Assembly (NCBI RefSeq): GCF_024055665.1
Contig: NZ_JAMXMC010000001.1
Span: 186,001-250,000 of the forward strand
Source: Ideonella oryzae
Lineage (GTDB): Bacteria; Pseudomonadota; Gammaproteobacteria; Burkholderiales; Burkholderiaceae_C
Length of the DNA stretch: 64,000 bases
Direction: 5' to 3'
The notes beneath the pieces are model-generated. The model saw only the letters and a program-made list of their open reading frames with translations, ran no database searches and was not told where the DNA came from. Below are positions 26,774 to 53,928 of this stretch, in pieces; position 1 is the first letter of the stretch; every line of letters begins with the position of its first letter. Both the position numbers and the translations under genes were made by a program.

Positions 26774-26774
26774 C

Positions 26775-30281: not shown

Positions 30282-30283
30282 GC

Positions 30284-32825: not shown

Positions 32826-34322
32826 ATGCCAATCGCCCCTGCCCGCATCCTGCTGATCACTGCATGCGCCTTGAGTCTGCTGGGGTGCGCCCACCCGGCC
32901 TCGCCGCCCTTGCTCACCAGCCCGCCTACGCCGATCGCCCAGGCACTCGCAGGCAGTGGCTGGACCGACCAGGCAGTGGCTCTGGCCGCCTATCCGCTGG
33001 GCCACCCCGAGAAGGGGGTGTACTGGCGCAGCGATGTGCCCATGCAGCCGGCCTCGACCATGAAGGTCGTCACGGCGGCTGTTGCGCTTGACCGGCTGGG
33101 GCCGGCCAGCCAAGGCTGGACGGAGCTGCGCATCGAGGGAGCGCCCCAGGGCGGCGTGCTGAAGGGCCCGCTCTTCCTGCGTGGAGGCGGTGATACGGCG
33201 CTTGACTGGGGCGCGCTCTGGACCTTGCTCAGCCAGCTGCGCGCCCGTGGGATCGACACGCTGGACGACGGTGTGGTCGTGGACCGCACGCTGTTCCAAC
33301 CAGCGCGCATGGAACTTGGCGTTCCGCCTTTCGATGACGCTCCGGAGTTCGACTACAACGTCATTCCCGATGCACTGGACTTCAACCAGCATCTGCTGCT
33401 GATCCAGTTGCAAAGCGACGCACAGGCATTGCGGGCCAGCGTCTGGCCACCCCTGCCCGGCGTGCATTTCGACGCCCGGGCGGTCACGCTGATCGACGCA
33501 CCGTGTGAGGATTGGGACGCCCAATGGCGCACACCCGTGGCGCACACCGACGGGCAAGGCGAGGTCACCCTCGCGCTGCAAGGCAGCTTCCCACGCGATT
33601 GCACCCAGCGCAATGGGCTGAACCTGGTGGACAGCCAGTGGCTGGTGGACAGTGCGGTTCGCCTGCTCTGGCACGAACTGGGCGGCCACTGGGGAACCAC
33701 CGCCACGGTTCGCGAAGGCCGCACGCCAGAGGACACCCAGGTGGTGGCCCTGCATCAGGACGCCGCGCTGGCCGACGTGTTGCGCAACACCCTCAAGCGT
33801 TCCGACAACATCCTGGCCCGCCTGGTCTTCTTGCGCCTGGGCCGCCAACAGATCGATCTCGAAGCGCTCCGCCGGCCTGCGCCAGCAGAGCTGTCACCCG
33901 ACACCCGAGAAGCCGCCGGTCGGGCGGTGCGGGCCTGGATGCAGGCCCAAGACATCCCCACGGATGGCCTGGTGCTGGAGAACGGCTCTGGCCTCTCCCG
34001 CGCCGAACGCATCACGCCAGCCACGATGGCCAGGCTGCTGGCCGCCGTCGACCGCGCGCCCTACGCCCCCGAGCTGCGCAGCGGCTTGCCGCTGGCCGGT
34101 GTGGATGGCACCCTGCGCCGCCGCTTTCAGAACCAGCCTGCGCAAGGCCGAGCCCGGCTCAAGTCCGGCACGCTGAGCAATGTGGTGGCTGTGGCGGGCT
34201 ATGTGCGCGACCGCGCAGAACGCGACTGGGTGGTGGTGGCGATGGTCAACCAGCCCGATGCCTCCAGCCACGGCACCCAGGTCGTGGACCGGCTGGTGAA
34301 CTGGGTCGCCGAACAGCGCTGA
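32826..34322 (+). CDS. dacB: D-alanyl-D-alanine carboxypeptidase/endopeptidase, DacB (PBP4)-type lipoprotein
   Basis: 498 residues, peptidase family S13. Seen: a lipoprotein signal with cleavage before C21 (SLLGC), SxxK at S77-T-M-K80 (PASTMK), an SxN motif (KRSDN, about 315), and KSG (LKSGTLSN, about 446) in place of KTG. The family trims the terminal D-Ala and cuts DD cross-links in the periplasm; the lipid anchor places it at a membrane. It is convergent with the TonB receptor gene, at the left edge of the murein-peptide island, and may generate D-Ala and cut peptides for it. Confidence 0.9.
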   Translation: MPIAPARILLITACALSLLGCAHPASPPLLTSPPTPIAQALAGSGWTDQAVALAAYPLGHPEKGVYWRSDVPMQPASTMKVVTAAVALDRLGPASQGWTELRIEGAPQGGVLKGPLFLRGGGDTALDWGALWTLLSQLRARGIDTLDDGVVVDRTLFQPARMELGVPPFDDAPEFDYNVIPDALDFNQHLLLIQLQSDAQALRASVWPPLPGVHFDARAVTLIDAPCEDWDAQWRTPVAHTDGQGEVTLALQGSFPRDCTQRNGLNLVDSQWLVDSAVRLLWHELGGHWGTTATVREGRTPEDTQVVALHQDAALADVLRNTLKRSDNILARLVFLRLGRQQIDLEALRRPAPAELSPDTREAAGRAVRAWMQAQDIPTDGLVLENGSGLSRAERITPATMARLLAAVDRAPYAPELRSGLPLAGVDGTLRRRFQNQPAQGRARLKSGTLSNVVAVAGYVRDRAERDWVVVAMVNQPDASSHGTQVVDRLVNWVAEQR

Positions 34323-34338
34323 GGCCTCCAGCAAAGAT

Positions 34339-34364
34339 CCCCGCCACCGTGACCGGAGGCGGGG
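34339..34364. terminator. Hairpin between convergent dacB and TonB-receptor genes
   Basis: CCCCGCC (34339-34345) pairs with GGCGGGG (34358-34364) across a 12-base loop, 17 bases past the dacB stop. No T tract. A bidirectional terminator is likely given the convergent genes. Confidence 0.5.
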
Positions 34365-34404
34365 AAGCGGTCATGGACCACCGGCACACCGGCCGGCGCC
34401 AGGT

Positions 34405-37227
34405 TCAGAACTTGTGGTTCACACGCAGGGTGAAGGAGCGCATGCGCGGATCACCAACCCGCCCATCCCAACCGGCCCCCACCACGTTGTCCACGTTGTG
34501 CGCGCTGTACGAAGGCTTGGTGTCGAACAGGTTCTTCACACCGAAGGTCACGCTGGTGTCCTTGAAGCCCGTGTAGGTGGCCGACAGGTGGTACAGCGTG
34601 TAGCTCTTGACCCAGGTGGGCGCGTTGGGCGAGGTAACCCCGGAGCCAAAGCCGTCGACTTCGTCGCGGTAGTGACCTGTGAAGGACTGGACACCGGTGA
34701 CACTCCAGTCGCCGCGCGACCAGGTCAGCATGGCCTGATGCTTCCAGCGCACGTGCAGATCGTAGCCGTAGATCGCGTCCCCGAAGGAACCCACCAGTTC
34801 GGTCCACGGGTCGTTGGCACTGAAGCGCGACTTGTAGCTGTCGGTGTAGGTGCCATCGAGGCTGGCCACCCAGGTGTCCGGACCATCCTTCACATTGGCC
34901 GTCACGTTCAAGTCGACGCCGCGTGTCTTGGCCCCGGCCTGGTTCATGATCGGGGCATCGACCTCGGTGATGTAGCCATTTTCGTCGCGGACCACGTACT
35001 GTGAGTACTGGTCGTAGTGGGCCATCAGGGCCTGACCGGACAGCGCGGCGATCTTGTTGTTGATCTCGATGTTCCAGAAGTCGATGCTGGAAGTCAGCCA
35101 GGGAAGCGGCGAGGCCACCAAGCCGATGGACCATTGCTTGGAGGTCTCCGGCTTCAACTGGGGGTTGCTGGTGGTGACGATGTCCGGGCGGATGCCGCAG
35201 GCATTGGCATCGGTGCCGCCATTAGGGCACAACACCGGGTCGTTGATGTCGCTGTTGAACTGTCCAGTGCTGCTGCCACCATAGAGCTGCTCGAAGCCCG
35301 GTGCGTGGAAGCCCTTGCTGTAGGATGTGCGAAAGGCCAGTTCCGGCAGGGGTTGCCAGCGCAAGGCCACCTTCGGGTTGGTGGTGGAGCCAAAGTCGTT
35401 GTAGTGGTCGTAGCGCAGTGCCGTCTGCAGATCCAGGCTCTTCATGAGCGGAACGTCCAGCTCACCGAACACCGCGCTGATGTCGCGGCTGGCCTGGTCC
35501 AGCGAAGCCGGTGCGCTCACGCCATTGATCGTGGGATAGCTCGACTCGGATTCGTTGAACTTGTACTTCTCATTGCGGAGGTCCAATCCCAGCGCCATCG
35601 AGACGGCCCCCGCTGGCAGGCTGTAGATCTCATGCGACACGGTGGCGTCAAGCTCCGCCACGCTGGCCTGTCCACCGTAGAGCTTGGCGCCACGCGCCTT
35701 GGCGGCCTCCAGCAAAGCCATGGCCTCCGGTGTCTGGCTCTCGCCAGCCTTCAGGAAGGGGTTGATCAGCCCGGTGGCCATGGCCGCGCTCAGCTGGTCC
35801 TGGTACAAGTAGCCGTCACCCAGCGTGGTGTCGGCCTTGCTCTGGGCATAGGACAGACCCGTCTTGTAGTCCCAGTCGCCGGCCAGTACGCCCTCCAGGC
35901 CCAGCAGCACACGGTAGGCGTCGGTCTTGGTGTTCTGCTGACGCGGACCACATTCCAGGCAGCGCCACCGGATCAGTTCATCTTTGGTGTTGTCGAAGCC
36001 AGGCACCAGACCGGTCAGGTCCTGGTAATAGGGCGAACGCACCAGATTGCCGTTGGCATCCTTGATGTACGCCGGGTACAGCGCGCCGGCTGACTTGGTG
36101 GTGAGCTGGATCGGGGTGTATTCCACCGCAGATTCGGTGTGGGAAGCCACCACCTCCGCCGTCAGCATGTGATCGGGCGACAGCCGGAAGTTGGCCTTGG
36201 ACACCAGGTTGAAGCGATCCACCGGCTGCATCAGGCTCCACTGCTTGCCGTAGTCGTAGGCACAAGCCTTGTTGTTGTTGTTGAAGCCGGTGATGTCGCC
36301 TCGGTAGGCGACCATGTCGGTGCCCGCAGAGCAATCCCCTTGCAGGGCCAGCAGGTTGGCCTTGTTGTAGGACTGGGTGTCCCCGGGCAGGGTGTAGTAG
36401 CCCGACAGCGCCGTGCCGGACGATGCGCCGATGGTGGCGAACGGCGTGCCGGTGGTGTCCGGCGCCAGGCCACGGTCGGGCTGGTAGCCGTTCTGGAACG
36501 AACGCTGGGTACCCCGCAGGCGGTTGTTGGTGTCGTAGGTCAGGCTGAACAGTGCGTTGTAGCCATCGGCCTCGTAGTCACCCACCCCACCCAACACCGA
36601 GAGGCGGTACATGTCACCGCCCCCATGCTGGGTCTTGTCGGCCGAGGCCGTCATCTCCAGGCCCTGGTAGTCACGCTTCAGGATGAAGTTGATCACCCCC
36701 CCAATGGCATCGGTCCCGTAGATGGCGGAGGCCCCGTCCTTGAGCACCTCGATCCGATCAACCGCCGCCATCGGAATGGAGTTCAAGTCGACCGAGGTGC
36801 CATTCAACCCATGGGTGGAGAGACGCCGGCCGTTGAGCAGCACCAGCGTGTACTGTGCGCCCAGGCCCCGCAGCGAAGCGCTGGCGGCACCGTTGTTGTG
36901 GGGGCGGTCGGCCGTGCTGTTGAGGAAGTCCCCGCCCTGGTTGGTCGTCATGTTGTCGACGCCATTGCCGTTCGACGACAGGGTCGCAACAAACTGCTCG
37001 GCACTGGTGATGCCCTGCTTGACCAGGTCCTGCGCCTGGATGACCTGCAAGGCCACGGCCCCTTCGTCCCGCACCCGCTTGATGCTGGAACCCGTGACCT
37101 CGATGCGCTGAGGCTTGCCCTCGTCCTTCTTCGGCGTGGGCGGAGCATCCTGGGCGTAAGCCATCGCAGGGAGCACCAAACCCACCATGACCAGGCTCTG
37201 CGTGAGCCGATTCAGCTTGAACAACAA
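34405..37227 (-). CDS. TonB-dependent outer-membrane receptor
   Basis: About 940 residues: signal peptide (FKLNRLTQSLVMVGLVLPAMAYA), a TonB-box-like QRIEVTGSSIKR, a plug domain (SASLRGLGAQYTLVLLNGRRLS, YGTDAIGGVINFILK), then a 22-strand barrel ending in the C-terminal FTLRVNHKF. Paired cysteines in predicted loops (CSAGTD..C, RCLECG, CPNGGTDANACG) suggest extracellular disulfides. No ATG suits the start: the best ribosome-binding site, GAGGAGAGG, precedes TTG codons at 37227 and 37224; the ATG at 37275 would add 16 residues before the signal peptide. Located beside a peptide/murein recycling operon, so a peptide substrate is possible; siderophore or B12 use cannot be excluded. Confidence 0.85.
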   Translation of the reverse strand: MLFKLNRLTQSLVMVGLVLPAMAYAQDAPPTPKKDEGKPQRIEVTGSSIKRVRDEGAVALQVIQAQDLVKQGITSAEQFVATLSSNGNGVDNMTTNQGGDFLNSTADRPHNNGAASASLRGLGAQYTLVLLNGRRLSTHGLNGTSVDLNSIPMAAVDRIEVLKDGASAIYGTDAIGGVINFILKRDYQGLEMTASADKTQHGGGDMYRLSVLGGVGDYEADGYNALFSLTYDTNNRLRGTQRSFQNGYQPDRGLAPDTTGTPFATIGASSGTALSGYYTLPGDTQSYNKANLLALQGDCSAGTDMVAYRGDITGFNNNNKACAYDYGKQWSLMQPVDRFNLVSKANFRLSPDHMLTAEVVASHTESAVEYTPIQLTTKSAGALYPAYIKDANGNLVRSPYYQDLTGLVPGFDNTKDELIRWRCLECGPRQQNTKTDAYRVLLGLEGVLAGDWDYKTGLSYAQSKADTTLGDGYLYQDQLSAAMATGLINPFLKAGESQTPEAMALLEAAKARGAKLYGGQASVAELDATVSHEIYSLPAGAVSMALGLDLRNEKYKFNESESSYPTINGVSAPASLDQASRDISAVFGELDVPLMKSLDLQTALRYDHYNDFGSTTNPKVALRWQPLPELAFRTSYSKGFHAPGFEQLYGGSSTGQFNSDINDPVLCPNGGTDANACGIRPDIVTTSNPQLKPETSKQWSIGLVASPLPWLTSSIDFWNIEINNKIAALSGQALMAHYDQYSQYVVRDENGYITEVDAPIMNQAGAKTRGVDLNVTANVKDGPDTWVASLDGTYTDSYKSRFSANDPWTELVGSFGDAIYGYDLHVRWKHQAMLTWSRGDWSVTGVQSFTGHYRDEVDGFGSGVTSPNAPTWVKSYTLYHLSATYTGFKDTSVTFGVKNLFDTKPSYSAHNVDNVVGAGWDGRVGDPRMRSFTLRVNHKF

Positions 37228-37614
37228 CGTACCTCTCCTCTCAGATGAACAAAATCCCTGTTTCAATTCATTCACCTGTCATCAGCAGGTTCTGGCTTTC
37301 AGCGTAGGCAAGGCCGTGCACGAACAACAATGCCGACTTGTGCCGGGGCAATAACCTGGACTCATACCCCGCGATGCGACCACCGGCCGTGACAAGCCGT
37401 TTTGGTGCGGTCACTCGGGCCTCGCCGAGGAGGCCTGCCCCAAGACGGCGCGAAGACATGTCCCAAACGAACAGAAACATGCTTCGTGTTTCGCAAAATC
37501 TGGACCACAAACCCAGATTGCACGTTTCTGGTTCATGTCGGATCGTTTGGCTCAGCCCGTCCCATCGCCGCCAGAAATCAACCACCATTCGTGCGGTCTG
37601 TCGCGCCACGGCAC
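37228..37614. other. Intergenic/promoter region upstream of the TonB receptor, no gene recognised
   Basis: About 390 bases of lower G+C between the receptor start and the terminator of the preceding operon. It contains the ribosome-binding site GAGGAGAGG (37232-37240) and an interrupted repeat CATGT...ACATG around 37457-37481. A 120-residue open frame here on the minus strand has no recognisable motif. I could not identify a Fur box or riboswitch. Confidence 0.55.
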
Positions 37615-37639
37615 AAAAAAGCCGACGCACTGCGTCGGC
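37615..37639 (-). terminator. Strong intrinsic terminator after the aspartoacylase-type gene
   Basis: On the minus strand GCCGACGCA-G-TGCGTCGGC (stem about 9 bp, positions 37621-37639) is followed directly by TTTTTT (37620-37615). It lies 22 bases past the stop of the 37661-38605 gene. It ends the Dpp/amidase operon and separates it from the TonB receptor, which must have its own promoter. Confidence 0.88.
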
Positions 37640-37660
37640 CGGTCATGCGTGCTCTGGCAT

Positions 37661-38605
37661 CTAGCGAAAACGCCCGGAAGGGCGTGCCAGGTAGAACCAC
37701 TCCTGGCCAACGGGCGCCCGATCATTGGGAAACAGCAGAACCACGTCCTCGGTCGCACGCAGCACGACCCCATCGGCCCGGGTGCCGATCACCTCGCCCT
37801 TGGCCACGGGATCGAAACTGCGCCAGGCGCGTGCAAAGGTGTCCCCCTCGCTGGCGCGATCCACCACGTCGAAGATCTGCAAGCCATCCATCGACGCCTG
37901 CGGCGGCGGCGGCGCATCGCGCAACATCCCCAGATGGGCCAGCGCATTGAGGATGGCCCGATAGGCCACCTCGGGCGCCTCAAGCGCCTGGTGCTGCCCA
38001 CACTCCAGCGTCACGCCCCAGCCGCCCTGGCGGCGCATGTACTCGGTCGTACCCACGCCATAGTCCACCGACAGGTCGCCCCCGGTGACCCCGGCGGCGG
38101 CCCGGCGCTCCACGCCCGCGGCGTAGGTGGACAACCAGCCCCACACGCCTCGCCCCACCCCGAGGGCGCGGGCGAAGGCCTGTTCCTTGGCCTCATGGAC
38201 GAAGGGCTCGATGGCGCCCGTGTTGTCACGCGGGCCCACCATCACGAAGCCCGGCCCGCCCCCCTGGAAGGAATGCAGGTCCAGCAGCACCTCGTGCTCG
38301 GACAGCAGCGGGCACAGCCAGTTGGCCACCTGGTCCTCGAACTCGACCGGCGTGGCGGTCGGCATCAGCCGGCGGTTGAGGTTGCGGTCACCGTTGCGCT
38401 CGCCCTTCTGGAAGGCCAGCGGGTTGCTGATGGGCACCAGGGTCAGCGTGCCGCAGTCCAGTGCCATTTCGCCGCGGTCCAGCGCGTCGATGAGGCGCCG
38501 GATGGCGATGCCGCCGCAGACCTCGTTGCCGTGCACCGTGCCCAGCACCAGCAGCCGCGGCCCGGGCCGCGGCGAGACATATTGAACCGACTTGAAGGAC
38601 AGCAT
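37661..38605 (-). CDS. Succinylglutamate desuccinylase/aspartoacylase-family metallohydrolase
   Basis: 314 residues, M14-like zinc hydrolase. Seen: LGTVHGNEVCGG (zinc ligands H25 and E28), NLNRRLMP, and DLHSFQGGG (third ligand His, about 120). The C-terminal third is a barrel-sandwich-like domain (VDRASEGDTFARAW, KGEVIGTRADG). AstE-type enzymes cleave acyl-amino acids; related M14 proteins (MpaA) cleave the gamma-D-Glu-DAP bond of murein peptides. It is the last gene of the operon with the peptide ABC transporter and AmiD-type amidase, so an amidase/peptidase role on imported peptides is a reasonable inference. Confidence 0.82.
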   Translation of the reverse strand: MLSFKSVQYVSPRPGPRLLVLGTVHGNEVCGGIAIRRLIDALDRGEMALDCGTLTLVPISNPLAFQKGERNGDRNLNRRLMPTATPVEFEDQVANWLCPLLSEHEVLLDLHSFQGGGPGFVMVGPRDNTGAIEPFVHEAKEQAFARALGVGRGVWGWLSTYAAGVERRAAAGVTGGDLSVDYGVGTTEYMRRQGGWGVTLECGQHQALEAPEVAYRAILNALAHLGMLRDAPPPPQASMDGLQIFDVVDRASEGDTFARAWRSFDPVAKGEVIGTRADGVVLRATEDVVLLFPNDRAPVGQEWFYLARPSGRFR

Positions 38606-38648
38606 GGCAGGGCGCCTCCTTGCGCGCCCGGAGAAGAGAGCACGGGGT

Positions 38649-39611
38649 TCAGACCCGGTGACAGGCCAGATGGCGACCCTGCACTTCGCGCCAGACCGGC
38701 ACCTGGGCTGCGCACTCGGCCGTGGCCCGGGGACAGCGCTGGTGGAAGGCACAGCCGGAAGGCGGCGCCAGCGGGCTGGGCAGCTCGCCTTGCAGGTGGA
38801 TGCGCTGCACCTTGGCCGAGGCTGGGGCCAGCGTGGGCGCCGCGCTGAGCAAGGCCTGGGTGTAGGGGTGCAGCGGCGCCTGCAGCACCGCGTCACGCGG
38901 GCCCTGCTCCACCGCGCGGCCCAGGTACATCACCATCACCTCGTCGGCCATGTGCTCCACCACGCCCAGGTTGTGCGAGATGAACACATAGCCGGTGCCA
39001 TTGGCCGCCTGCAGGTCCTTGAACAGGTTGAGGATCTGGGCCTGCACCGAGACATCCAGCGCCGAGGTGGGCTCGTCGGCCACCACCACGCGCGGGTTGA
39101 GGATCATGGCGCGGGCGATGGCGATGCGCTGACGCTGCCCGCCCGAGAACATGTGCGGATAGCGCAGCAGATGGCCTTCGGCCAGGCCGACCTCGCGAAT
39201 CATGCGGGCCATGCGCTCCCAGCGGGCGGCGCGGTCCAGCGGCGTGTTCAGCAGCAGCGGCTCGGCCAGCGTCGCGGCAATGCTCTTGCGCGGGTTGAGG
39301 GCCGCGAACGGGTTCTGGAACACCATCTGCACCTGGCGGCGCAGTGTGGCCCGGGCCGCGGCGTCGGCCTGGCCGACCGGCTGACCGTCCAGCCACAGCT
39401 CGCCGGCCGTGGGCGTCTCGATCAGCGCCAGCTGGCGCGCCAGCGTGGACTTGCCGCAGCCCGATTCACCCACCACCGCCAGCGTGCGACCGGGCTGCAC
39501 CGCAAAGCTCACACCGTCCAACGCCTTCAGCAGCCGGGGTGTCTGCCACCAGTGCGCACGCACCGGGTAGTGCCGGGCCAGGCCGCGGGCTTCCAGCAGG
39601 ATCTCGCTCAT
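38649..39611 (-). CDS. dppF: Peptide ABC transporter ATP-binding protein, DppF-type
   Basis: 320 residues. Seen: Walker [10 protein letters not shown] (49-57), [16 protein letters not shown], signature [14 protein letters not shown], Walker [13 protein letters not shown], and an oligopeptide-type C-terminal region with three cysteines ([16 protein letters not shown]). The last element is the Fe-S-like C-terminal domain of the OppF/DppF subfamily. Energises the importer with DppD. The start overlaps the dppD stop (ATGA). Confidence 0.9.
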
Positions 39612-40561
39612 GCCGTGGCCTCCTCGTCCTGCGGCACCCGGGGATGCAGGCAGCGCACCACGCCCTGCCAGGCCGGCCGGGCGGCATGGCAGTCGGCCCG
39701 GACCGCCGCGCAGCGCGGTGCAAACAGGCAGCCTGCGGGGCGGTCCACGCCAGCCGGCACGCTGCCCGGCAAGGCCGGCAGGCGGGCCTGGCCCCGGCTG
39801 CGCTCGGGCAGCGCGGCCAGCAAAGCCGCCGTGTAGGGGTGACGCGGCTGGTCGAACAGCGTGTCGGCCGGCCCGGTCTCGATGATCTGGCCGGCGTACA
39901 TCACGGCCACCCGCTGGGCCAGTTCGGCCACCACGCCCAGATCGTGCGTGATCATGATCAGCCCCATGCCCTGCTCTTTCTGCAGCCGGCGCAGCAGGTC
40001 CAGGATCTGGGCCTGGATGGTCACATCCAGCGCGGTGGTGGGTTCGTCAGCGATCAAGAGCCGCGGCTGGCAGGCCACCGCCATCGCGATCATCACCCGC
40101 TGGTTCATGCCGCCCGAAAGCTCATGCGGGTAGGCGCGCAGGCGGCTGCGCGCATCCGGGATCTCGACCTGCTCCAGCAGTTCCAGCGTGCGCTGGCGCT
40201 GCGCCGCGCCGCGCAGGCCCAGGTGGGCGCGCAGCACCTCGGCGATCTGGTCGCCCACGCGGTAGGCCGGGTTCAGCGCCGTCAGCGCGTCCTGGAACAC
40301 CATCGCGATCTCGCGGCCGATCACCTGCCGGCGCTCGCGCGGGCGCAGGCGCAGCAGGTCGCGGCCCATGAACTCCACCGCCTCGGCCTGGACCTGGCCC
40401 GGCGGATCGATCAGGCCCATCAGCGCCATCATGCTGACCGACTTGCCCGAGCCCGATTCGCCCACCAGGCCCAGCACCTCGCCGGCGGCCACGTCCAGGT
40501 CCAGGCCCTCGACGGCCACCGAGTCGCCAAAGCGCACGCCCAGGTTTCGCACACGCAGCAT
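39608..40561 (-). CDS. dppD: Peptide ABC transporter ATP-binding protein, DppD-type
   Basis: 317 residues. Seen: [18 protein letters not shown] (Walker A), [29 protein letters not shown] (signature), [13 protein letters not shown] (Walker B), and the C-terminal cysteine-containing tail [14 protein letters not shown] typical of OppD/DppD. The frame is open upstream through dppC; the ATG at 40561 overlaps the dppC stop by one base. Confidence 0.9.
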
Positions 40562-41487
40562 CAGCGGGCCTTTCGCAGCTTGGGGTCCAGCGCATCGCGC
40601 AGGCCATCGCCCAGCAGGTTCACGCACAGCACCGTGACCAGGATCACCAGGCCCGGCAGCATCACCACCCAGGGTGCGCGCACCAGGTAGTCCCGGGCGG
40701 CCGACAGCATGGTGCCCCACTCGGGCGTGGGCGCCTGCACGCCCAGGCCCAGGAAGCCCAGGCCGGCCACCTCCAGGATCGACGAGGAGAAACTCAGCGT
40801 CGCGTTGACCAGCAGCGGCGCCATGCAGTTGGGCAGCACGGTGTTGAACATCAGCCGCGCGTTGCCCGCGCCGGCCAGGCGGCTGGCGGTCACGTAGTCC
40901 TTGGGCAGTTCGCCCAGCGCCGCGGCCCGGGTCAGCCGCACATAGCCCGGCAGTGCGCCGATCGCGATCGCCAGCACGGTGTTGATCGCCCCCGGGCCCA
41001 GCACCGTGATGACGCAGATGGCCAGCAGCAGGCCGGGCAAGGCCAGCATCACATCCATCACCCGCATCACCGCCGGGGCCAGCCAGCGCGGATGGAACGC
41101 CGCCAACAGGCCCAGGGCCACCCCGGGCAGCAGCGACAACAGCACCGAGGCCAGGCCGATGCCCAGCGAGATGCGGCCGCCCCACAGCAGGCGCGAGAGG
41201 ATGTCGCGGCCCAGCTCATCGGTGCCCAGCGGAAAGCGGGCCTGTCCACCCACCTGCCAGACCGGGGGGGTCAGCAAGGCATCGCGGTACTGCTGCACCG
41301 GGTCGTGTGGCGCCAGCCAGGGCGCCAGCAGCACGGCCAGGCCGATCAGCGCCAGCACCGCCAGTGCCACCACGGCGCCGCGGTGGGCGGTGAAGGCGCG
41401 GGTGACGTCGCGGCCGGCCGCCAGGCGGGCCTGCCAGCGGGCCCAGCCGCCCGGTGCCTGCACGGCGGAAATGTCGGTCGTGCTCAT
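40561..41487 (-). CDS. dppC: Peptide ABC transporter permease, DppC-type
   Basis: 308 residues with about six helices. It starts with a 28-residue polar N-terminus ([10 protein letters not shown]), then the OppC-N helix. Also seen: [22 protein letters not shown] and the EAA loop region ([26 protein letters not shown]), which contacts the ATPases. It pairs with DppB, whose stop overlaps its start by four bases. Confidence 0.9.
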
Positions 41488-42497: not shown

Positions 42498-42544
42498 CGG
42501 GTCAGCCGGGGCGCGAGAGTCGTCAGGCAGTCATCAGGCCGGCC

Positions 42545-43447: not shown

Positions 43448-43535
43448 TACCCGTGATTGTGGTCTGAGCCCTGAGTGGACTGCAGCTTAGGAGCCGCCAG
43501 CCGCCGGGGGCCAATGTCAATCCGCGCCGAGGGTA

Positions 43536-43620
43536 TAACCCCCGGTTAAGGCCACCCCGTCGAGAACGACCCGCTCGCCCCAGACCGGAGCAATGATCAT
43601 GCCCTGAGGTTATGGGAACC
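43536..43620. promoter_or_regulatory. LysR-type T-N11-A box and second dyad in the divergent amiD/dadA promoter
   Basis: The 245-base gap between the two murein-peptide operons contains TAACCCCCGGTTA (43536-43548), a 5-bp inverted repeat that fits the T-N11-A rule for LysR sites. The related dyad GGTT-N5-AACC lies at 43608-43620. The plus-strand operon encodes a LysR protein (48743-49642). This regulator probably binds here to control both operons together. Confidence 0.55.
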
Positions 43621-43692
43621 CCTCGCGCTTTCATTGGCCCCGCACCGGCAGGCTCCGTACCCTTGGCTCCGTTGCAGATTCTTGTTGCGGAG

Positions 43693-44946
43693 ATGAAGAC
43701 AGTCGTCGTGATCGGTGGGGGAATCATTGGCCTGACCACGGCCTGGTCCCTGGTGGAAGCGGGATTCAACGTCCGCGTGATCGAACGCAGCAAGACCCCT
43801 GCAACCGGTGCCAGCCACGCCAACGGCGGGCAGCTGAGCTACCGGTACGTCTCACCCCTGGCCGATCAGGGTGTGCCGCTGAAGGCGCTCAAGTGGCTGC
43901 TGGACCGCGACGGGCCGCTGCGTTGGCGACCCGAAGCCGATGCACATCAGTGGCGCTGGCTGGCGTCCTTCCTGGCCCACTGCAGGGCCCCGGTCAACCG
44001 GCAGACGACTGCACGGCTGTTGGCCCTGGGCGCCCTGAGCCAGGCCGCCTGTGCAGAGTTCGGTGCCCGGTTGCCGCTGGCCGAAGCCCATTGGCGCGCC
44101 CCCGGCAAGCTGGTGCTGTACCGGCACCAGAAGGACTTCGACCATGCCCGCGCCCGCGTCGAGCGCCAGGCTGAGGGGCCGGAACAGGCCCTGGGGCCGC
44201 ACGACTGCCGTCGCGTCGAGCCGGCCCTGGCCCACAGCCCGGTGGCCTGGGCCGGTGGCATCTTCACCGAGGGCGAGGCCGTGGCCGACTGCCACGCCGT
44301 CTGCCTGCAGCTGGCCTCGGCCCTGGCCCAGCATCCGAACTTCGACGGCTTCGTGCAGGCCGAGGTGACGGGCTTCCAGCTGCAACAGCGGCAGGCCCGG
44401 GCGGTGCTGACCGACCAAGGCCCCATCGGCGGCGATGCGTTCGTGCTGGCGGCCGGGATTGGCAGCCGCCCCCTGGCCGAATCGGTGGGCATCCGCCTGC
44501 CGCTCTACCCGCTCAAGGGCTACAGTCTGAGCGCTCCCATCGCCGCGCACCACCATCCGCCGGAGGTGAGCGTCACGGATTTCGAGAAGAAAGTGCTGTA
44601 CACCCGGATCGGACGCCAGCTGCGCGTGGCAGCGATGGTGGACCTGGTCGGTCTCCACGAAGAGATCGATCCACAACGCCTGGCGGCCCTGCAACGGGCC
44701 GTGCATGCCACCCTGCCCGACGCAGCCGACTATGAGCAGGCCGAGCCCTGGTCCGGCCTGCGCCCGGCCACGCCTGCGGGTGCGCCCATCCTGGGTGCCA
44801 GCCCCATTGAAGGCCTCTGGCTCAACGTGGGTCACGGCGCCTTGGGCTTCACCTTCTCGTTCGGCTCGGCCCGCATCCTGAGCCGCCTGATCGCCGGCCA
44901 ACCCAGCCCGCTGCCCCTGGACGGGCTGCAACTGCAAACTGCATGA
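43693..44946 (+). CDS. dadA: D-amino acid dehydrogenase, DadA-type
   Basis: 417 residues, FAD-dependent. Seen: VVVIGGGIIGLTTAWSLVEAGF (dinucleotide motif), SHANGGQLSYRYVSPLADQG (DadA-typical, contacts FAD), and the C-terminal WSGLRPATPAGAPILG and NVGHGALGFTFSFGSARIL. It oxidises D-alanine and other D-amino acids to 2-oxoacids plus ammonia, passing electrons to the respiratory chain. It would consume the D-Ala released by the peptidases encoded downstream. The frame is open upstream to 43612 but the ATG at 43693 fits the family. Confidence 0.9.
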   Translation: MKTVVVIGGGIIGLTTAWSLVEAGFNVRVIERSKTPATGASHANGGQLSYRYVSPLADQGVPLKALKWLLDRDGPLRWRPEADAHQWRWLASFLAHCRAPVNRQTTARLLALGALSQAACAEFGARLPLAEAHWRAPGKLVLYRHQKDFDHARARVERQAEGPEQALGPHDCRRVEPALAHSPVAWAGGIFTEGEAVADCHAVCLQLASALAQHPNFDGFVQAEVTGFQLQQRQARAVLTDQGPIGGDAFVLAAGIGSRPLAESVGIRLPLYPLKGYSLSAPIAAHHHPPEVSVTDFEKKVLYTRIGRQLRVAAMVDLVGLHEEIDPQRLAALQRAVHATLPDAADYEQAEPWSGLRPATPAGAPILGASPIEGLWLNVGHGALGFTFSFGSARILSRLIAGQPSPLPLDGLQLQTA

Positions 44947-46232
44947 GCGCCCCCACCCTGCCCCCCCTGACCGCCGAGGCGCTGGCCGAGGCCTTGCGCC
45001 AGGCCGTGCTTGCACGCGACTTTGGTGCCACACCCGATGCGCTGGAAGGCGGCGGACCGGTGCGCCACTGTCCCAGCCTGGACCTGGCGGTGGTGGCCTT
45101 CCCGGAGGGGGGGGCGCCGGTGGCGGCCAACGTGCTGTTCTCGCGCGATCTGCCGCAGGGCTGGGTGGCCCGCCACGAGCCCGGCTGCGGCCCGGTGGCC
45201 AATGTGCGCTACCTGGCCGATCAGACCGATGCGCTGTTCAACTCCGTGGCCTGGCAGCCCGAGGCCCAGTGGAACGCGATGGCCTGGACCCCGCTGCCCA
45301 CGGGCGCCCGCCAGACCGATCCGCAGGCGCCCCGCTTCGTCCAACCCTATCCGGCCTCGCTGCTCAAGCTGATGGTGCTGGTGGCTGTGGCCCGCTGTGT
45401 GGACCGCGACGAGGTGCGCTGGGACGACGGCTTCGGCTTTGCCGAGATGACCCGCCCGGTGCGCACCTGGGCCATGGACATGATGGCCCAGAGCAGCAAC
45501 GAGGCCACCTCGGCCATGGTGGCGCTGCTGCACCGCTGCGGCATGATCCGCCGCGAAGGCGGCGTCGAAGTGCACAACGGCTGGCACGACTGGATGGCCC
45601 GCCACGGCCTGCACACCCTGCGCCTGGCCGACACCACACCCGAAGGCGGCTGGCAGAACCGGACCGGTGCCGGCGTGGGTCACTTGCAGATGACCGCCTG
45701 GGACACGGTGCGCCTGTTGTGGCTGCTCGACCCGCTGGCCCCACCCGCCCCCTGGCCGCGCCAGGACAACGGCCCGCTGCTGAGCGCGCCGCAGCTGAAG
45801 GTGGTGCTGGACTGCCTGGCCGCCCAGGGCGTGCACGGCATCCTGTCTTCGGCCCTGCTCGCCGGCCTGCCCGGTTGGGTGCCCGGCATCCCGGCCCAGT
45901 TGCCGGCGCAATGGATCGACCGCCAGGGCGACGGCCAGGTGGCCGGCGACTGCTACCCCGGCGACCTGCGCGCGGCCCAGGCGGAGGCCCCGCTGCGCTT
46001 TGCCCACAAGACCGGCACCACCGAGAACTACGCTTCCGACGCGGGCATCGTGACCGGCCGGCCGGGCTTGGCCCGGCGCCATTACCTGGTGGCGGTGCTG
46101 ACCAATCTGGGGACCCGCTACGCCCCGCACCCACTGGCCTTCAGCACCTGGCGCCTGCCGGCCCTGGGCGCAGCCATCGACGCCTTTCTGGCCCCTCACC
46201 TGGAACCGAAAGTGGAGCCGGGCGCGTCATGA
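44943..46232 (+). CDS. Serine hydrolase of the class A beta-lactamase/PBP-like fold, no signal peptide
   Basis: 429 residues. The three active-site motifs are present: S139-L-L-K142 (PASLLK), S184-S-N186 (SSNEA), and K356-T-G358 (HKTGTTENY). No N-terminal signal peptide or membrane anchor is visible, so the protein looks cytoplasmic, unusual for this fold. The N-terminal 110 residues do not match a family I recognise. The start overlaps dadA and the stop overlaps the LD-carboxypeptidase gene (both ATGA), so it belongs to the murein-peptide operon. Likely an aminopeptidase, amidase or esterase acting on imported D-peptides; a drug-resistance role is less likely here. Confidence 0.8.
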   Translation: MSAPTLPPLTAEALAEALRQAVLARDFGATPDALEGGGPVRHCPSLDLAVVAFPEGGAPVAANVLFSRDLPQGWVARHEPGCGPVANVRYLADQTDALFNSVAWQPEAQWNAMAWTPLPTGARQTDPQAPRFVQPYPASLLKLMVLVAVARCVDRDEVRWDDGFGFAEMTRPVRTWAMDMMAQSSNEATSAMVALLHRCGMIRREGGVEVHNGWHDWMARHGLHTLRLADTTPEGGWQNRTGAGVGHLQMTAWDTVRLLWLLDPLAPPAPWPRQDNGPLLSAPQLKVVLDCLAAQGVHGILSSALLAGLPGWVPGIPAQLPAQWIDRQGDGQVAGDCYPGDLRAAQAEAPLRFAHKTGTTENYASDAGIVTGRPGLARRHYLVAVLTNLGTRYAPHPLAFSTWRLPALGAAIDAFLAPHLEPKVEPGAS

Positions 46233-47137
46233 GCCGCCACACCTGGATCCCGCCGCTGCCGTCTGGTGCCTGCCTGGGCCTGGTGGCGCCGGCCGGCCCG
46301 ACGCCCGGCGAGCTGCTGGCCCCGGTGCAGGCCCTGCTGCACGCGCAGGGCTGGCAGGTCCGGGTCTATCCCGGCTGCCACGGCCCTGCCCATCTGGACC
46401 ACCTGGCCGCTGACGACGGCCAGCGCCTGGCCGATCTGCACGCTGCTTGGGCCGACCCGACCGTGCACGCCGTGCTGGCCCTGCGCGGCGGCTACGGTTG
46501 CGACCGCCTGCTCGACCGCATCGACCCGGCGTTGATGCGCGCCCATGCCAAGCCGCTGATCGGCTACAGCGACCTGACCGCCCTGCACCTGCTGCGTGAC
46601 CGATGGGGCCTGCCCGGCCTGCACGCGCCCATGCCGGGCTCGGACGGCCTGAAGGCGCCGGAGGACTGGGCCCGGCTGAGCGAAGCCCTGCGGCAAGGCT
46701 GGCACGCCGGCGATCTGCTGGTGCCATCGGTGGCACCCCATCCACTCAACCGGCCCGGCGTCGCCCGTGGCCGGCTGATCGGCGGCAACCTGACGGTGCT
46801 GACCTCGCTGGTGGGTACACCGTTTGCGGCACGCACCGAAGGCGCCATCCTGTTCCTGGAAGACGTCGGCGAGCCACCCTACCGCATCGACCGGCTGCTG
46901 GCGCAGCTGCGGCTGTCCGGGGCCTTGCAGGGCGTGGCCGGCTTCTTGCTGGGTGGATTCACCGAAGCCGACAATGCCGACGCCGTGCTGGCCGACTACC
47001 TGCACCCGCTGGGACGGCCGGTGCTGGCCGGCTGGCCCGCCGGCCACACCGTGCCGAACCACGCGCTGCCGCTGGGCGTGCCGGTCGAGATGGATGTGGC
47101 GGCAGGCACGCTGCGGCTGCTCGACCCCCTGCCCTGA
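46229..47137 (+). CDS. ldcA: LD-carboxypeptidase, cytosolic LdcA-type
   Basis: 302 residues, family S66 (LdcA/MccF). Catalytic triad seen: Ser114 in IGYSDLTAL, Glu211 in FLEDVGEPPYRIDR and His273 in AGHTVPNH. It cleaves the L-DAP-D-Ala bond of cytosolic tetrapeptides. No signal peptide. Translationally coupled to the serine hydrolase gene upstream; the binding-protein gene begins 20 bases after its stop. Confidence 0.9.
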   Translation: MSRHTWIPPLPSGACLGLVAPAGPTPGELLAPVQALLHAQGWQVRVYPGCHGPAHLDHLAADDGQRLADLHAAWADPTVHAVLALRGGYGCDRLLDRIDPALMRAHAKPLIGYSDLTALHLLRDRWGLPGLHAPMPGSDGLKAPEDWARLSEALRQGWHAGDLLVPSVAPHPLNRPGVARGRLIGGNLTVLTSLVGTPFAARTEGAILFLEDVGEPPYRIDRLLAQLRLSGALQGVAGFLLGGFTEADNADAVLADYLHPLGRPVLAGWPAGHTVPNHALPLGVPVEMDVAAGTLRLLDPLP

Positions 47138-47156
47138 TGCCCCACCTCTGCTGCCG

Positions 47157-48746
47157 ATGAAGTTCCCCCCCCTGCCGCTGCTGACCCTGGGCTGCCTGTT
47201 GTTGGCGCTGGCCGGTCAGCCGGCCCTGGCCGCCCGGCCGCTGGTCTACTGCGCCGACGCCAGCCCCGAGGGCTTCGATCCCTCGCTGTGGGACTCGGCC
47301 AGCACCCACAACGTCACCACCCAGATGTTCGAGGGCCTGCTGGCCTTCGAGCGTGGCAGCTCCAGGCTGGTGCCAGCGCTGGCCCAAAGCTGGCAGATCT
47401 CGCCCGACGCCCGCACGGTCGAGTTCCATCTGCGGCCGGGCGTGCACTTCCACACCGAGCCCTACTTCACCCCCACGCGGGACTTCAACGCGGACGATGT
47501 GCTGTTCACCTTCGGCCGCATGATCGACAAGCAGCACCCGTTCAACCAGGCCTTCCCCGCCACCTTCGTCTACCCGGAGAACCTGGGCCTGGCCCAGATG
47601 GTCGAGCGCATCGAGAAGGTGGATGCGATGACCGTGCGCTTTCACCTGACGCGGCCCAACGTCAGCTTCCAGAACTACTTCGCGATGGGCTTTGCAGGCA
47701 TCCACTCGGCCGAATACGGCGCGCAGCTGCTGCGCCAGGGCCGAGCCAAGCAGATCAACAACCAGCCCATCGGCACCGGCCCCTACCAATTCAAGTCTTA
47801 TGCCAAGGACGATGTGGTGCGCATGCAGCCGCACCCGGGCTACTGGGGTGGCCGACAAGCCTCACCAGGGCTGATCTACAGCATCACCACCGAGCCCAAT
47901 GTGCGGGTGCAGAAGCTGCTGGCCGGTGAATGCCAGGTCAGCGCGCCGATCCGCGACGTGGACATCGCCGCCATCCAGCGCCGGCCCGACATCCGGCTGA
48001 TGCAGACCCAGGCGCTCAATGTCTCCTACCTGTCGTTCAACCTGCGCAAGGCCCCGACGAACAACCGCCTGGTGCGCGAAGCGCTGGACATTGCGGTGGA
48101 CCGCGACACCCTCTTCAAGGTGCTGTTCCCGCGTGGCGACGCAACCCAGGCCGTGAGCGCCTTCCCGCCCATGGTGCCGGGCTACAACCGCACGCTGAAG
48201 AACGAATACAACCCCACCCGCGCCAAGGCCCTGCTGGCCCAGGCGGGCTATGCCCAGGGCATGGACATCGACCTCTGGGCCCTGCCGGTGAGCCGCCCCA
48301 CCAACCCCAACGGGCAGCTGCTGGCCCAGCTGATCCAGGCCGACTGGGCGCGCATCGGCGTGCGGGCCCACATCAAGACCTACGAGTGGGGCGAGTACCT
48401 CAAGCGCGCCAACAACGGTGAGCATGACGTCTACATGAGCGGCTGGTCGGGCGACACCGCCGACCCCGACGACTTCCTCAGCCCCAACCTGTCCTGCGCA
48501 GCCAACCGCAGCGGCGTGAAATTCTGCAACCCGGACTTCGACCGCCTGCTGGACCAAGCCCGCGCCACGCCGGATGCGACGCGCCGCGCCGCGCTCTACG
48601 AGCAGGCCCAGCTGATCTTCCACCACGAGCGGCCCTGGATCCCGATCGCCCACTCCACCGTCTACATCCCGGTGCGCCAAGGCGTGACGGGCTTCGTGAT
48701 GTCGCCCGACGGCAGCGTGGACTTCAAGGACGTCGTACGCCAATGA
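47157..48746 (+). CDS. Periplasmic peptide-binding protein of the Dpp/Ddp/Opp type
   Basis: 529 residues, SBP family 5. Seen: signal peptide (MKFPPLPLLTLGCLLLALAG, cleaved near ALA), LVYCADASPEGFDPSLWDSAS typical of DppA/DdpA, IGTGPYQFKSY and the LRKAPTNNRLVREALDIAVDRDTL hinge region. It is the binding protein missing from the minus-strand dppBCDF operon, encoded on the other side of the shared promoter. The D,D-dipeptide specificity suggested by the neighbours (DdpX, DadA) is an inference. Confidence 0.88.
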   Translation: MKFPPLPLLTLGCLLLALAGQPALAARPLVYCADASPEGFDPSLWDSASTHNVTTQMFEGLLAFERGSSRLVPALAQSWQISPDARTVEFHLRPGVHFHTEPYFTPTRDFNADDVLFTFGRMIDKQHPFNQAFPATFVYPENLGLAQMVERIEKVDAMTVRFHLTRPNVSFQNYFAMGFAGIHSAEYGAQLLRQGRAKQINNQPIGTGPYQFKSYAKDDVVRMQPHPGYWGGRQASPGLIYSITTEPNVRVQKLLAGECQVSAPIRDVDIAAIQRRPDIRLMQTQALNVSYLSFNLRKAPTNNRLVREALDIAVDRDTLFKVLFPRGDATQAVSAFPPMVPGYNRTLKNEYNPTRAKALLAQAGYAQGMDIDLWALPVSRPTNPNGQLLAQLIQADWARIGVRAHIKTYEWGEYLKRANNGEHDVYMSGWSGDTADPDDFLSPNLSCAANRSGVKFCNPDFDRLLDQARATPDATRRAALYEQAQLIFHHERPWIPIAHSTVYIPVRQGVTGFVMSPDGSVDFKDVVRQ

Positions 48747-49642
48747 GACTGCGCCACATCGAGGTCTTCCACGCCATCATGCAGGCCGGCTCGGTCAGCG
48801 GGGCCGCCCAGCTGTTGCACATCTCGCAGCCGGCCGTCACCAAGGTGCTGCAGCACTGCGAACTGCAGTTGGGCATGCCACTGTTCGAGCGCACCCCCGG
48901 CAAACTGCACCCGACGCCGGAGGCACACCGTCTGTTCACCGAAGTGGACCGGCTGCACCGCGACCTGCTGGGCGTGCGCCGCCTGGCTGCCAACCTGCGC
49001 ACCGGCCAGGCCGAGCGGGTGCGCATCGGCATCACCCCCTCGCTGGGGGTGGACCTGCTGCCCGAGGCCCTGGTTCGCTGGCGCAAGCTGGCGCCGCACA
49101 CGCCGGTGGACCTGAGCACCAACCACACCACCGAGATCGTCAGCGCACTGTTGAGTGGCGACATCGACCTGGGCCTGTCGCTGCAGAACCCGCACCACCC
49201 CGGCCTGCGCGCCGAGGCACTGGCCAGCAGCACGATGATGGCGCTGTGCCCGGTCAGCAGCCCCGAGGCCCGCCAGGCCGGCCCGCTGCCCATCAGCGAC
49301 ATCACCAGCGAGCTGATCGGCCTGGGCGACGACGACCCGATGGGCCACGCCGTGATGAACCTGGCCAGCGATGGCGAGGCCGCGCCGCAGCCGCTGGTCA
49401 CCGTCAAGACCTACCAGCTGGCGCGGGCGCTGGTCGAATCCGGCATGGGCCTGAGCCTGGTGGACCCGTTCACCGCGGCCTCGGCCCATCCCCAACGCAT
49501 CCGTGTGCGGCGGCTCACCCCCGCCGTGCCGGTGCAGCTCTACCTGCTGACGCTGGCCAAGGCCCCGCTGGGCCTGCCCGCCCGCAAGCTGGTCCGGGTG
49601 CTGGGCGACGTGGCCCAGGAGAGCCTGGCCCGGCTGCCCTGA
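48743..49642 (+). CDS. LysR-family regulator of the murein-peptide operons
   Basis: 299 residues. Seen: MRLRHIEVFHAIMQAGSVSGAAQLLHISQPAVTKVLQHCE (HTH) and an effector-binding domain. Its start overlaps the binding-protein stop (ATGA), embedding it in the operon rather than divergent from it. It is the obvious candidate to bind the T-N11-A box at 43536-43548. The ligand could be a D-amino acid or D-Ala-containing dipeptide; not determinable here. Confidence 0.88.
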   Translation: MRLRHIEVFHAIMQAGSVSGAAQLLHISQPAVTKVLQHCELQLGMPLFERTPGKLHPTPEAHRLFTEVDRLHRDLLGVRRLAANLRTGQAERVRIGITPSLGVDLLPEALVRWRKLAPHTPVDLSTNHTTEIVSALLSGDIDLGLSLQNPHHPGLRAEALASSTMMALCPVSSPEARQAGPLPISDITSELIGLGDDDPMGHAVMNLASDGEAAPQPLVTVKTYQLARALVESGMGLSLVDPFTAASAHPQRIRVRRLTPAVPVQLYLLTLAKAPLGLPARKLVRVLGDVAQESLARLP

Positions 49643-49645
49643 ACC

Positions 49646-50263
49646 ATGCCATCCCCCTTGACCCTGCCCTGTGCGGACGTGCCCGGCCACCCGGACTTCC
49701 AGGCTTTGGCTGCATTGCCCGACATCGCCGTCGAGCTGCGCTACGCCACCGCCGACAACTTCGTCGGCACCAATGTCTATGGCACGCTGGACCTGGCCTA
49801 CCTGCGGCGCGAAGCGGCCCAGGCGCTGGACAACGCCGCCACCTGGCTGGCCGGGCGGCGCCCAGGCTACCGGCTGCTGGTGCTGGACGCGCTGCGACCG
49901 CAGCAGGTGCAGGAGCGGCTCTATGCCCAACTGGCCGGCACGCCGCTGGTGCGCTACCTGGCGAATCCGCAGATCGGCTCCATCCATTCCTTCGGCATGG
50001 CGGTGGACGTGACGCTGCTGGACCCGCAGGGCCGCGAGGTGGACATGGGCACCGGCTTCGATGCGATGGAACCCGGCTCCCACCCCGAGTACGAGGTGGA
50101 GCACCTGGCCCAGGGCTGGCTGAACGCCCAGCACCTGGTGGAGCGCGGCTGGTTGCGCGCGGCCATGCGCCAGGCCGGCTTCCACGGCATCAGCACCGAG
50201 TGGTGGCATTTCGATTTTGGCGACCGCGCCCAGGTGCGCGCCACCCTGCCCCGCGTGCTCTGA
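49646..50263 (+). CDS. ddpX: D-alanyl-D-alanine dipeptidase, DdpX/VanX-type
   Basis: 205 residues, peptidase M15D. Seen: the zinc and catalytic motif SIHSFGMAVDVTLLD (His114, Asp121), EWWHF (Glu185 base, His188), and an Arg in LDALRP (R84) equivalent to the VanX substrate arginine. It hydrolyses D-Ala-D-Ala. No signal peptide, so cytoplasmic, as for E. coli DdpX. The E. coli ddpXABCDF system couples the same dipeptidase to a D,D-dipeptide importer. Three bases after the LysR stop. Confidence 0.92.
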   Translation: MPSPLTLPCADVPGHPDFQALAALPDIAVELRYATADNFVGTNVYGTLDLAYLRREAAQALDNAATWLAGRRPGYRLLVLDALRPQQVQERLYAQLAGTPLVRYLANPQIGSIHSFGMAVDVTLLDPQGREVDMGTGFDAMEPGSHPEYEVEHLAQGWLNAQHLVERGWLRAAMRQAGFHGISTEWWHFDFGDRAQVRATLPRVL

Positions 50264-50287
50264 CCCTTCATCCCGACGAGGCCCGCC

Positions 50288-51340
50288 ATGACCGCCGCCA
50301 GCCGCCGCCTGTTTCTGCAAATCGCCTCCGCCAGCGGGGCCAGCCTGGGTACGGGTGCAGTGGCAGCCGCCACACCGGCCCGGCCGGTGCTCACGCCACG
50401 CCGCCTGCGCCCTGGCGACACGGTGGGCTTGGTCAGCCCGGCCAACGCCACCTATGAGCAGGAACCGATCACGATCGCGATCGAGTCGCTGCAGGCTCTG
50501 GGCTTTCAGGTGAAGGAAGGCCGCCACCTGCGGGCCCGGCGCGGCCAGTTCGCCGGCACCGATGCGCAGCGCGCCGAGGACATCAACGCGATGTTCGCCG
50601 ATGACAGCGTGGCCGGTATCTTCGCGCTGACCGGCGGCTCGGGCTGCACCCGCATCGTCGACCAGCTCGACTACGCCAGCATCCGCCGCCACCCCAAGTT
50701 CTTCGGCGGCTTCTCGGACATCACCTGCCTGCTCAATGCCATCCAGCAGCAGACCGGGCTGGTGACCTTCCACGGCCCGGTGGCCAGCTCGGAATGGAAC
50801 CCCTACAGCGTGGCCAACTTCCGCGCGCTGGTGATGGACGGCCAGGCCGCGCTGCTGCGCAACCCGGTCGACAGCGCACCGGCCGGCCTGGTGCCGACCG
50901 AACACCGCATCGCCACGCTGCGCCCCGGCAAGGCGACCGGCCGGCTGGTGGGCGGCAACCTGACGGTGCTGGCGGCGCTGGCCGGCTCGCGCTACTGGCC
51001 CGACTTCCGCGGCGCCATCCTGTTCCTGGAAGACATCAACGAGTTCATCTACCGGGTGGACCGCACCCTGTCCACGTTGCGCCTGGCCGGCGCGCTGGAC
51101 GCACTGGCCGGCGTGGTGCTGGGCCAGTTCACGAACTGCGAGCCGGGCGACGGCTACGGCACGCTGACGCTCGACGAGGTGTTCGAAGACTACTTCGGCG
51201 GCCTGGGCGTGCCGGTCTACCGCGGCGCCCAATTCGGCCATGTGAGACTCAAACTGACACTGCCGGTCGGGGCGATGGTCGAGATGGACGCCCAGGCCGG
51301 CACGCTTCGCTGCCTGGCACCGGTGGTCGCATCGACCTGA
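50288..51340 (+). CDS. LD-carboxypeptidase with twin-arginine signal
   Basis: 350 residues, family S66. It has a Tat-type signal (SRRLFLQIASASGAS) not present in the paralogue at 46229. Triad residues are visible: Ser in GGFSDITCL, Glu in FLEDINEFIYRVD, His in FGHVRLKL. It would act in the periplasm on stem peptides ending in D-Ala, while the paralogue acts in the cytosol. Last gene of the operon, 24 bases after ddpX, with a palindrome following. Confidence 0.88.
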   Translation: MTAASRRLFLQIASASGASLGTGAVAAATPARPVLTPRRLRPGDTVGLVSPANATYEQEPITIAIESLQALGFQVKEGRHLRARRGQFAGTDAQRAEDINAMFADDSVAGIFALTGGSGCTRIVDQLDYASIRRHPKFFGGFSDITCLLNAIQQQTGLVTFHGPVASSEWNPYSVANFRALVMDGQAALLRNPVDSAPAGLVPTEHRIATLRPGKATGRLVGGNLTVLAALAGSRYWPDFRGAILFLEDINEFIYRVDRTLSTLRLAGALDALAGVVLGQFTNCEPGDGYGTLTLDEVFEDYFGGLGVPVYRGAQFGHVRLKLTLPVGAMVEMDAQAGTLRCLAPVVAST

Positions 51341-53765: not shown

Positions 53766-53917
53766 AACCTGCTCCGGGACAGGGGCACGCCCTTGGTGCA
53801 GCCCGACCCGCCCGGGTTCACACCGCCGCCGGATGGGCACCGGAACGGCGCATTCCTCCCTGTGCCACTCCATCAAATCCACGCTCAGGCATCCCGAAAA
53901 GCTGGCCCATCGATTGC

Positions 53918-53928
53918 TTGTATACCAA
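53918..53928. promoter_or_regulatory. Candidate GntR/FCD operator upstream of the BMP transporter operon
   Basis: TTGTATACCAA contains a perfect GTATAC core and near-symmetric TTG/CAA flanks, the type of site (TTGTATACAA-like) recognised by FCD-subfamily GntR regulators. It lies 79 bases upstream of the binding-protein start. A GntR/FCD regulator is encoded at the far end of the same operon. Confidence 0.5.

Follow-up and report, generated by a model that had tools for sequence, protein, structure and literature searches.

In Bacillus subtilis the ykfA-D genes adjoin the dppB-E importer genes (PMC2954226, in the part of its text available), so that a peptide ATP-binding cassette (ABC) importer lies by an S66 LD-carboxypeptidase and other enzymes that act on stem peptides (PMC2954226 and PMC3305447, likewise in part). 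Escherichia coli YcjG and B. subtilis YkfB convert L-Ala-D-Glu to L-Ala-L-Glu before cleavage, as the available part of PMC2954226 describes. E. coli also has a ddpXABCDF operon, with an M15 dipeptidase and an SBP_5-type importer, and a ycjG-mpaA-pgrR-mppA region, in which an M14-superfamily amidase, a LysR regulator and a murein-peptide binding protein lie close together. Parts of these combinations recur in a gene island of Ideonella oryzae, located between 32.8 and 51.3 kb of the stretch of 64,000 nucleotides that was analyzed (the window; C1:186001-250000 of a 4.70-Mb genome that is 99% complete). It is fairly probable that the island serves the use of murein stem peptides as food, and this putative catabolic role is well supported by comparative genomics.

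Families in the island were assigned by Pfam and NCBIfam scans, and the lipoboxes and twin-arginine translocation (Tat) motif of the window proteins were read by eye. The scans and the gene coordinates confirmed the families that an earlier note on this DNA had placed there. The genes are as follows.

32826..34322, + strand: S13/PBP4-type (DacB) lipoprotein of the DD-carboxypeptidase/endopeptidase family (PF02113, 4.2e-69; passes the PBP4 model TIGR00666 with 183.3 bits, cut-off 107.8; lipobox LLGC)
34405..37275, - strand: TonB-dependent outer-membrane receptor, putatively for murein fragments (PF00593, PF07715; orthologue in a Pseudoduganella lurida island)
37661..38605, - strand: M14-type AspA/AstE zinc hydrolase, putative gamma-D-Glu-meso-diaminopimelate (mDAP) amidase (PF24827, 2.8e-15; model neighbors; zinc-type residues)
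38649..39611, - strand: DppF-type ATPase (PF00005, PF08352)
39608..40561, - strand: DppD-type ATPase (PF00005, PF08352; PRK11022, 411.8 bits, below the cut-off of 541)
40561..41487, - strand: DppC-type permease (PF00528, PF12911)
41484..42497, - strand: DppB-type permease (PF00528, PF19300)
42545..43447, - strand: AmiD/AmpDh2-type N-acetylmuramoyl-L-alanine amidase lipoprotein (Amidase_2, PF01510, 6.7e-32; peptidoglycan-binding domain, PF01471; lipobox LTGC)
43612..44946, + strand: DadA-type D-amino acid dehydrogenase (PRK00711, 408.3 bits, above the cut-off of 383)
44943..46232, + strand: serine hydrolase of the class A beta-lactamase/PBP-A fold (SxxK, SxN, KTG; model; Foldseek)
46229..47137, + strand: S66 peptidase without export signal (S66a), putative cytosolic LD-carboxypeptidase (PF02016, PF17676)
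47157..48746, + strand: DppA-like peptide-binding protein (PF00496)
48743..49642, + strand: LysR-type regulator (PF00126, PF03466)
49646..50263, + strand: M15 dipeptidase-like protein of a subfamily distinct from DdpX/VanX (PF01427, 2e-29)
50288..51340, + strand: S66 peptidase with Tat-type signal SRRLFLQ, putative periplasmic LD-carboxypeptidase (PF02016, PF17676)

The plus-strand operon runs dadA, serine hydrolase, S66, binding protein, lysR, M15 and Tat-S66, and because these genes overlap or are separated by at most 24 bases, one transcript is expected. The minus-strand operon runs amidase, dppB, dppC, dppD, dppF and M14-type hydrolase, followed 385 bases on by the TonB receptor gene, with which the gene of the PBP4-type lipoprotein is convergent. 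A simple gene caller, which was also used for genes of relatives, prefers starts at 37224 for the receptor and 43693 for DadA.

Related islands were sought by an M15 scan of one genome per species (84,980 species), which gave 288 relatives; all counts are on the best 80 of these 288. By title the 80 loci are from Burkholderiales or other betaproteobacteria, and they are related to one another, so the counts are not independent. Loci were taken with 10-kb flanks (18 of the 80 were shorter than 20 kb), and the profiles were built from these same loci, with thresholds chosen after the loci had been viewed. The top match was Ideonella benzenivorans, with eleven island proteins in view at 92-97% identity. 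By profile score, the M15 gene was accompanied by LysR in 68 loci, S66 in 62, S13 in 55, the TonB receptor and the binding protein in 50 each, the amidase in 35 and DadA in 25. At the same thresholds, nineteen in-group control stretches of about 20 kb yielded TonB, S66, S13, amidase, binding protein, DppB, DppC, LysR, M14 and serine hydrolase in 0/19 and DadA in 1/19; their sub-threshold matches were to ABC (27-116 bits), LysR (37-56 bits) and, in one case, TonB (50 bits). L222, which would have been the twentieth control, was left out for lying about 7 kb from its own genome's locus; it held a 100-bit binding-protein match and a 128-bit ABC match. In 20 controls from genomes of the phylum, only generic ABC, LysR and GntR matches and one 28-bit DadA match were found.

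The order of the genes varied. Many loci of Roseateles and Mitsuaria have, all on one strand, first the amidase with dppBCDF and then binding protein-lysR-M15-S66; the receptor immediately precedes lysR-M15 in L063 and L067, and the importer is on the opposite side in L055 and L034. That the same content recurs although its order is shuffled speaks for a functional link, with the reservation that these loci are related to one another. The grouping of the island genes is not due to chance. Conservation of the neighbors separately from ddpX, which the earlier note had named as grounds for abandoning its proposal, was not observed among the loci of this M15 group; beyond the group the neighbors were mostly missing. 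M15 relatives (E <=1e-10) were present in 46 of 398 genomes of a phylum sample, the window's genome included, and among the 40 neighborhoods examined from the 48 M15 places outside the window's genome there were one full island, nine cases of M15-binding protein-BC(DF) and 17 without any other match. One of the nine (L103 in G249, from another family of the same order) is a plain ddp-type operon plus an S66 peptidase. Outside the order, a distant M15 (L122 in G320) lies close to genes for an amidase and for MurQ, which scored 237 and 319 bits, respectively.

Since a TonB receptor can lie near any gene fortuitously, its orthology was examined. When the receptor from the Pseudoduganella lurida island (L071) was compared with the window's genome, the window's receptor was the best match (785 bits, 45% identity) and the runner-up reached 370 bits. 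Because of this difference, the TonB receptor is likely orthologous across families and retained near the island. The orthology, together with the persistence of the families around M15 under changing gene order, upholds the earlier note's proposal of a dedicated island for murein-peptide catabolism.

The proposed pathway runs from outside to inside. The TonB receptor would carry murein fragments across the outer membrane. Outside the inner membrane, stem peptides would be opened or trimmed by the PBP4-type lipoprotein and by the Tat-exported S66, and the amidase would cleave N-acetylmuramic acid (MurNAc) from L-Ala to free the stem peptide, which the DppA-like protein and DppBCDF would import. 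In the cytosol, S66a would take D-Ala off mDAP, M14 would cleave D-Glu(gamma)-mDAP and M15 the remaining dipeptide, and DadA would oxidize D-Ala to pyruvate and ammonia. The LysR protein would regulate the island; its identity as PgrR was rejected (22% identity, partial alignment). Every substrate, the cell locations, the regulation and the direction of flow are what we infer. Among sequences in the PDB the amidase scored 261 bits with AmpDh2 and 167 bits with AmiD. A lipobox pattern was found in 28 of 36 amidases and 36 of 55 S13 proteins, and a Tat pattern in 28 of 79 pooled S66 proteins.

Clustering of neighboring genes in the relatives' islands also revealed a BadF-type sugar kinase (26 loci), an AmpG-family permease (22 loci), a MurQ etherase (19 loci) and a GHL10 glycosidase-like lipoprotein (19 loci), with a NagX-like protein, a GntR regulator and a second binding protein in some. 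A genome from the phylum survey (G294) has a long version with sugar genes around its M15. Given these sugar genes, the wider theme is the use of murein, both sugar and peptide. MurQ and GHL10 queries gave no match in the window's genome (searches without a positive control), which seems to keep the peptide half of murein use.

An alternative that we consider possible, if on the unlikely side, is that the island recycles the cell's own murein turnover products, not foreign murein, and that the receptor imports something else. The window's genome encodes AmpG (above the family cut-off) and Mpl of the ordinary recycling route elsewhere, so the cell recycles, and turnover peptides of its own are conceivable substrates for all of the island enzymes. 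However, the retention of an orthologous TonB receptor with the island across families does not fit this explanation, and DadA and the three presumed cytosolic hydrolases indicate breakdown rather than reuse by Mpl.

A second alternative, which was the view of the earlier note, is an expanded Ddp system with a core of D-Ala-D-Ala import and hydrolysis by M15, to which the other enzymes supply D-Ala peptides. Aligned with E. coli DdpX over 169 positions, M15 shows 38% identity, with the residues of the zinc site and of catalysis conserved; a peptide importer adjoins it, and plain operons of M15, binding protein and importer genes were found in nine of the 40 distant neighborhoods. Its assignment as a DdpX/VanX D-Ala-D-Ala dipeptidase held at the level of the M15 family, but not at that of the curated NCBIfam models, where it fell below both the DdpX-type cut-off (138.5 bits against 176) and the VanX cut-off (61.9 against 320). 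An alignment was made of 79 group M15s (those of the window, of G294 and of 77 relatives), ten M15s of ddp-type operons, including E. coli DdpX, and 30 other M15s. All 79 group members have Leu at position 83 (Tyr or Phe in the ten ddp-type M15s, Tyr in VanX), Ile at position 113 (Asn, His or Asp in the ddp-type) and Met at position 118. The Arg of the HSRG motif, which is kept in 10/10 ddp-type M15s, 25/30 other M15s and VanX, is replaced in the group by an aromatic residue (Phe in 68, Tyr in 8 and Trp in 3 of the 79), and an additional loop (152-158) is absent from all ten ddp-type M15s. The changed residues flank the zinc ligands and may line the substrate pocket. Judged by these sequence features, the group M15 is a subfamily distinct from DdpX and VanX, and with such fixed differences next to the zinc site its substrate is not necessarily D-Ala-D-Ala.

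The binding protein was also nearer DppA than DdpA, with E. coli DppA chains matching at 484-494 bits and the DppA model at 513 bits, below its cut-off of 1005. S13 and S66 enzymes generally liberate single D-Ala, not D-Ala-D-Ala, and free D-Ala-D-Ala is therefore not an expected product here. For these reasons a system centered on D-Ala-D-Ala is doubtful, and we regard the expanded Ddp explanation as unlikely.

Within the murein-peptide pathway, the M14 hydrolase has zinc-type residues (H25, E28 and H111) that are invariant across seven sequences. Its predicted model is nearest to AstE/AspA/EutE, next to the cyanophycin dipeptide hydrolase CphZ and, lower, to the tripeptide-binding Csd4 of Helicobacter; from this closeness a gamma-D-Glu-mDAP isopeptidase activity is plausible. 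Of the island's parts, the serine hydrolase is the one least accounted for. The presence of such an enzyme, as the earlier note had it, was confirmed, to which can be added that its model (429 residues; predicted local distance difference test score of 89.7, i.e., confident) has the class A beta-lactamase/PBP-A fold by Foldseek, with 12-18% identity among the 50 matches listed, and that its N-terminus is not signal-like. Its SxxK and KTG motifs are invariant and SxN nearly so in 18 sequences, and it is present as a single copy in the window's genome. No match was found among PDB sequences up to E 1 or NCBIfam models up to E 0.01. As a guess, it could be a cytosolic penicillin-fold peptidase acting on peptides that end in D-Ala.

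The cleavage of L-Ala-D-Glu raises the question of an epimerase. The window's genome gave no YcjG match (a search without a positive control) and no match to the enolase-superfamily domain MR_MLE_C, for which the same search was positive in 14/14 control genomes; having no MR_MLE_C protein, it therefore has no YcjG/YkfB-type L-Ala-D/L-Glu epimerase. Perhaps S66, M14 and M15 provide one cytosolic hydrolase per stem-peptide bond and thereby replace the epimerase route. M15 peptidases that cleave L-Ala-D-Glu occur among endolysins and CwlK. Complete digestion without an epimerase, with S66 cleaving mDAP-D-Ala, the AspA-type M14 D-Glu(gamma)-mDAP and M15, as an undescribed dipeptidase, L-Ala-D-Glu, and with the route fed through a TonB receptor that has specificity for murein fragments, is a proposal to which we give a low probability. 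MR_MLE_C was surveyed in 40 M15-group genomes (39 from the 80 loci, not titled as metagenome-assembled genomes and with L070 omitted, plus G294): eight had none above the cut-off (five without a match, three with weak matches, E 3e-4 to 1e-3), nine had a YcjG-like protein (35.6-43.5% identity) and 23 were placed in neither class. YcjG-like proteins turned up in 15 of the 20 candidate regions retrieved. The absence of an epimerase as a mark of the whole M15 group was rejected on account of the nine genomes. Moreover, the islands of L064 and L065 themselves contain a 29% identical YcjG relative (at 6-917 and 122-1090, respectively) next to a sugar kinase gene, which argues against a general epimerase-free route. 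Of 11 same-family genomes without M15, two were also without MR_MLE_C.

Besides the epimerase survey, several observations weigh against the murein-peptide reading. Within the 10-kb flanks, M14 was found in only 12 of the 80 loci, and DppB and the serine hydrolase in 20 each, and M15 was present in 0/11 of the other same-family genomes listed in the phylum sample. A lipobox pattern in 12 of 77 M15s speaks against a cytosolic location. The M14 protein could not be aligned meaningfully with MpaA of E. coli, and its identity as MpaA was rejected. A search for LysR-type palindromes or words common to the island promoters gave none that beat shuffled sequences, and two shared 9-base words only. The receptor is a proposed candidate for murein fragments, its substrate being one that we infer, and MccF-type peptidases, which fall within S66, are among the closest solved structures of Tat-S66. 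The last observation would suit a peptide-antibiotic defense in which the S66 proteins are MccF-like self-protection enzymes next to a peptide importer, but this is highly improbable, as the amidase, PBP4, M15 and DadA, with MurQ and GHL10 in relatives, fit murein and not detoxification, and one S66 seems to be exported.

Cobalamin biosynthesis genes (CbiC, CbiX, tetrapyrrole methylases and CbiM; window 25436-30916) adjoin the island. Just downstream of it, a lumazine-synthase family protein (PF00885; 52054-52557) is encoded next to a TetR regulator, and a 55% identical match lies near M15 in locus L066 too. A PnrA-like binding protein and a BPD_transp_2 permease (53833-56298) probably form a nucleoside-type importer. 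A plasmid origin was rejected: 93 plasmid records matched, none across more than 80% of the query (best 19%).

Murein peptides are a source of nitrogen and carbon wherever bacteria die, and the use of foreign murein peptides by Gram-negative bacteria is poorly described in the open-access literature searched, where the titles and abstract openings of the papers listed gave no description of such an island in Burkholderiales. For bacteria that are not known as pathogens, the island offers an outside-to-inside parts list, in which the TonB protein is a candidate for the outer-membrane receptor of murein fragments, and raises the testable question of how L-Ala-D-Glu is broken down in bacteria without a YcjG/YkfB-type epimerase. 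Two things are worth the attention of specialists: the candidate receptor, and the digestion without an epimerase that may proceed with this distinct subfamily of M15.

In comparison with known systems, murein-sugar catabolic genes (murQ, AmpG, MurNAc/N-acetylglucosamine kinase) occur in some relatives' islands, whereas neither MurQ nor GHL10 was matched in the window's genome. Unlike E. coli ycjG-mpaA-pgrR-mppA, the window has no epimerase, its M14 is not alignable with MpaA and its LysR is 22% identical over part of its length. Unlike ddpXABCDF, it has an M15 of another subfamily, a DppA-like binding protein and many extra enzymes, and in place of a single operon M15 and the binding protein are on the plus-strand operon and BCDF on the divergent minus-strand one. 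Relative to B. subtilis dpp-ykf, the window's genome is without a YkfB-type epimerase; no NlpC/P60 was found among the island genes scanned, and no genome-wide NlpC/P60 search was made. To that arrangement the island adds the amidase, PBP4, Tat-S66, TonB receptor, DadA, M15, M14 and class-A-fold hydrolase. The earlier note's view that such an assembly is new in kind is thus not supported, since ykfA-D next to dppB-E was already known (PMC2954226, in its available part); the island is a putative catabolic cluster whose kind has a simpler representative in Bacillus.

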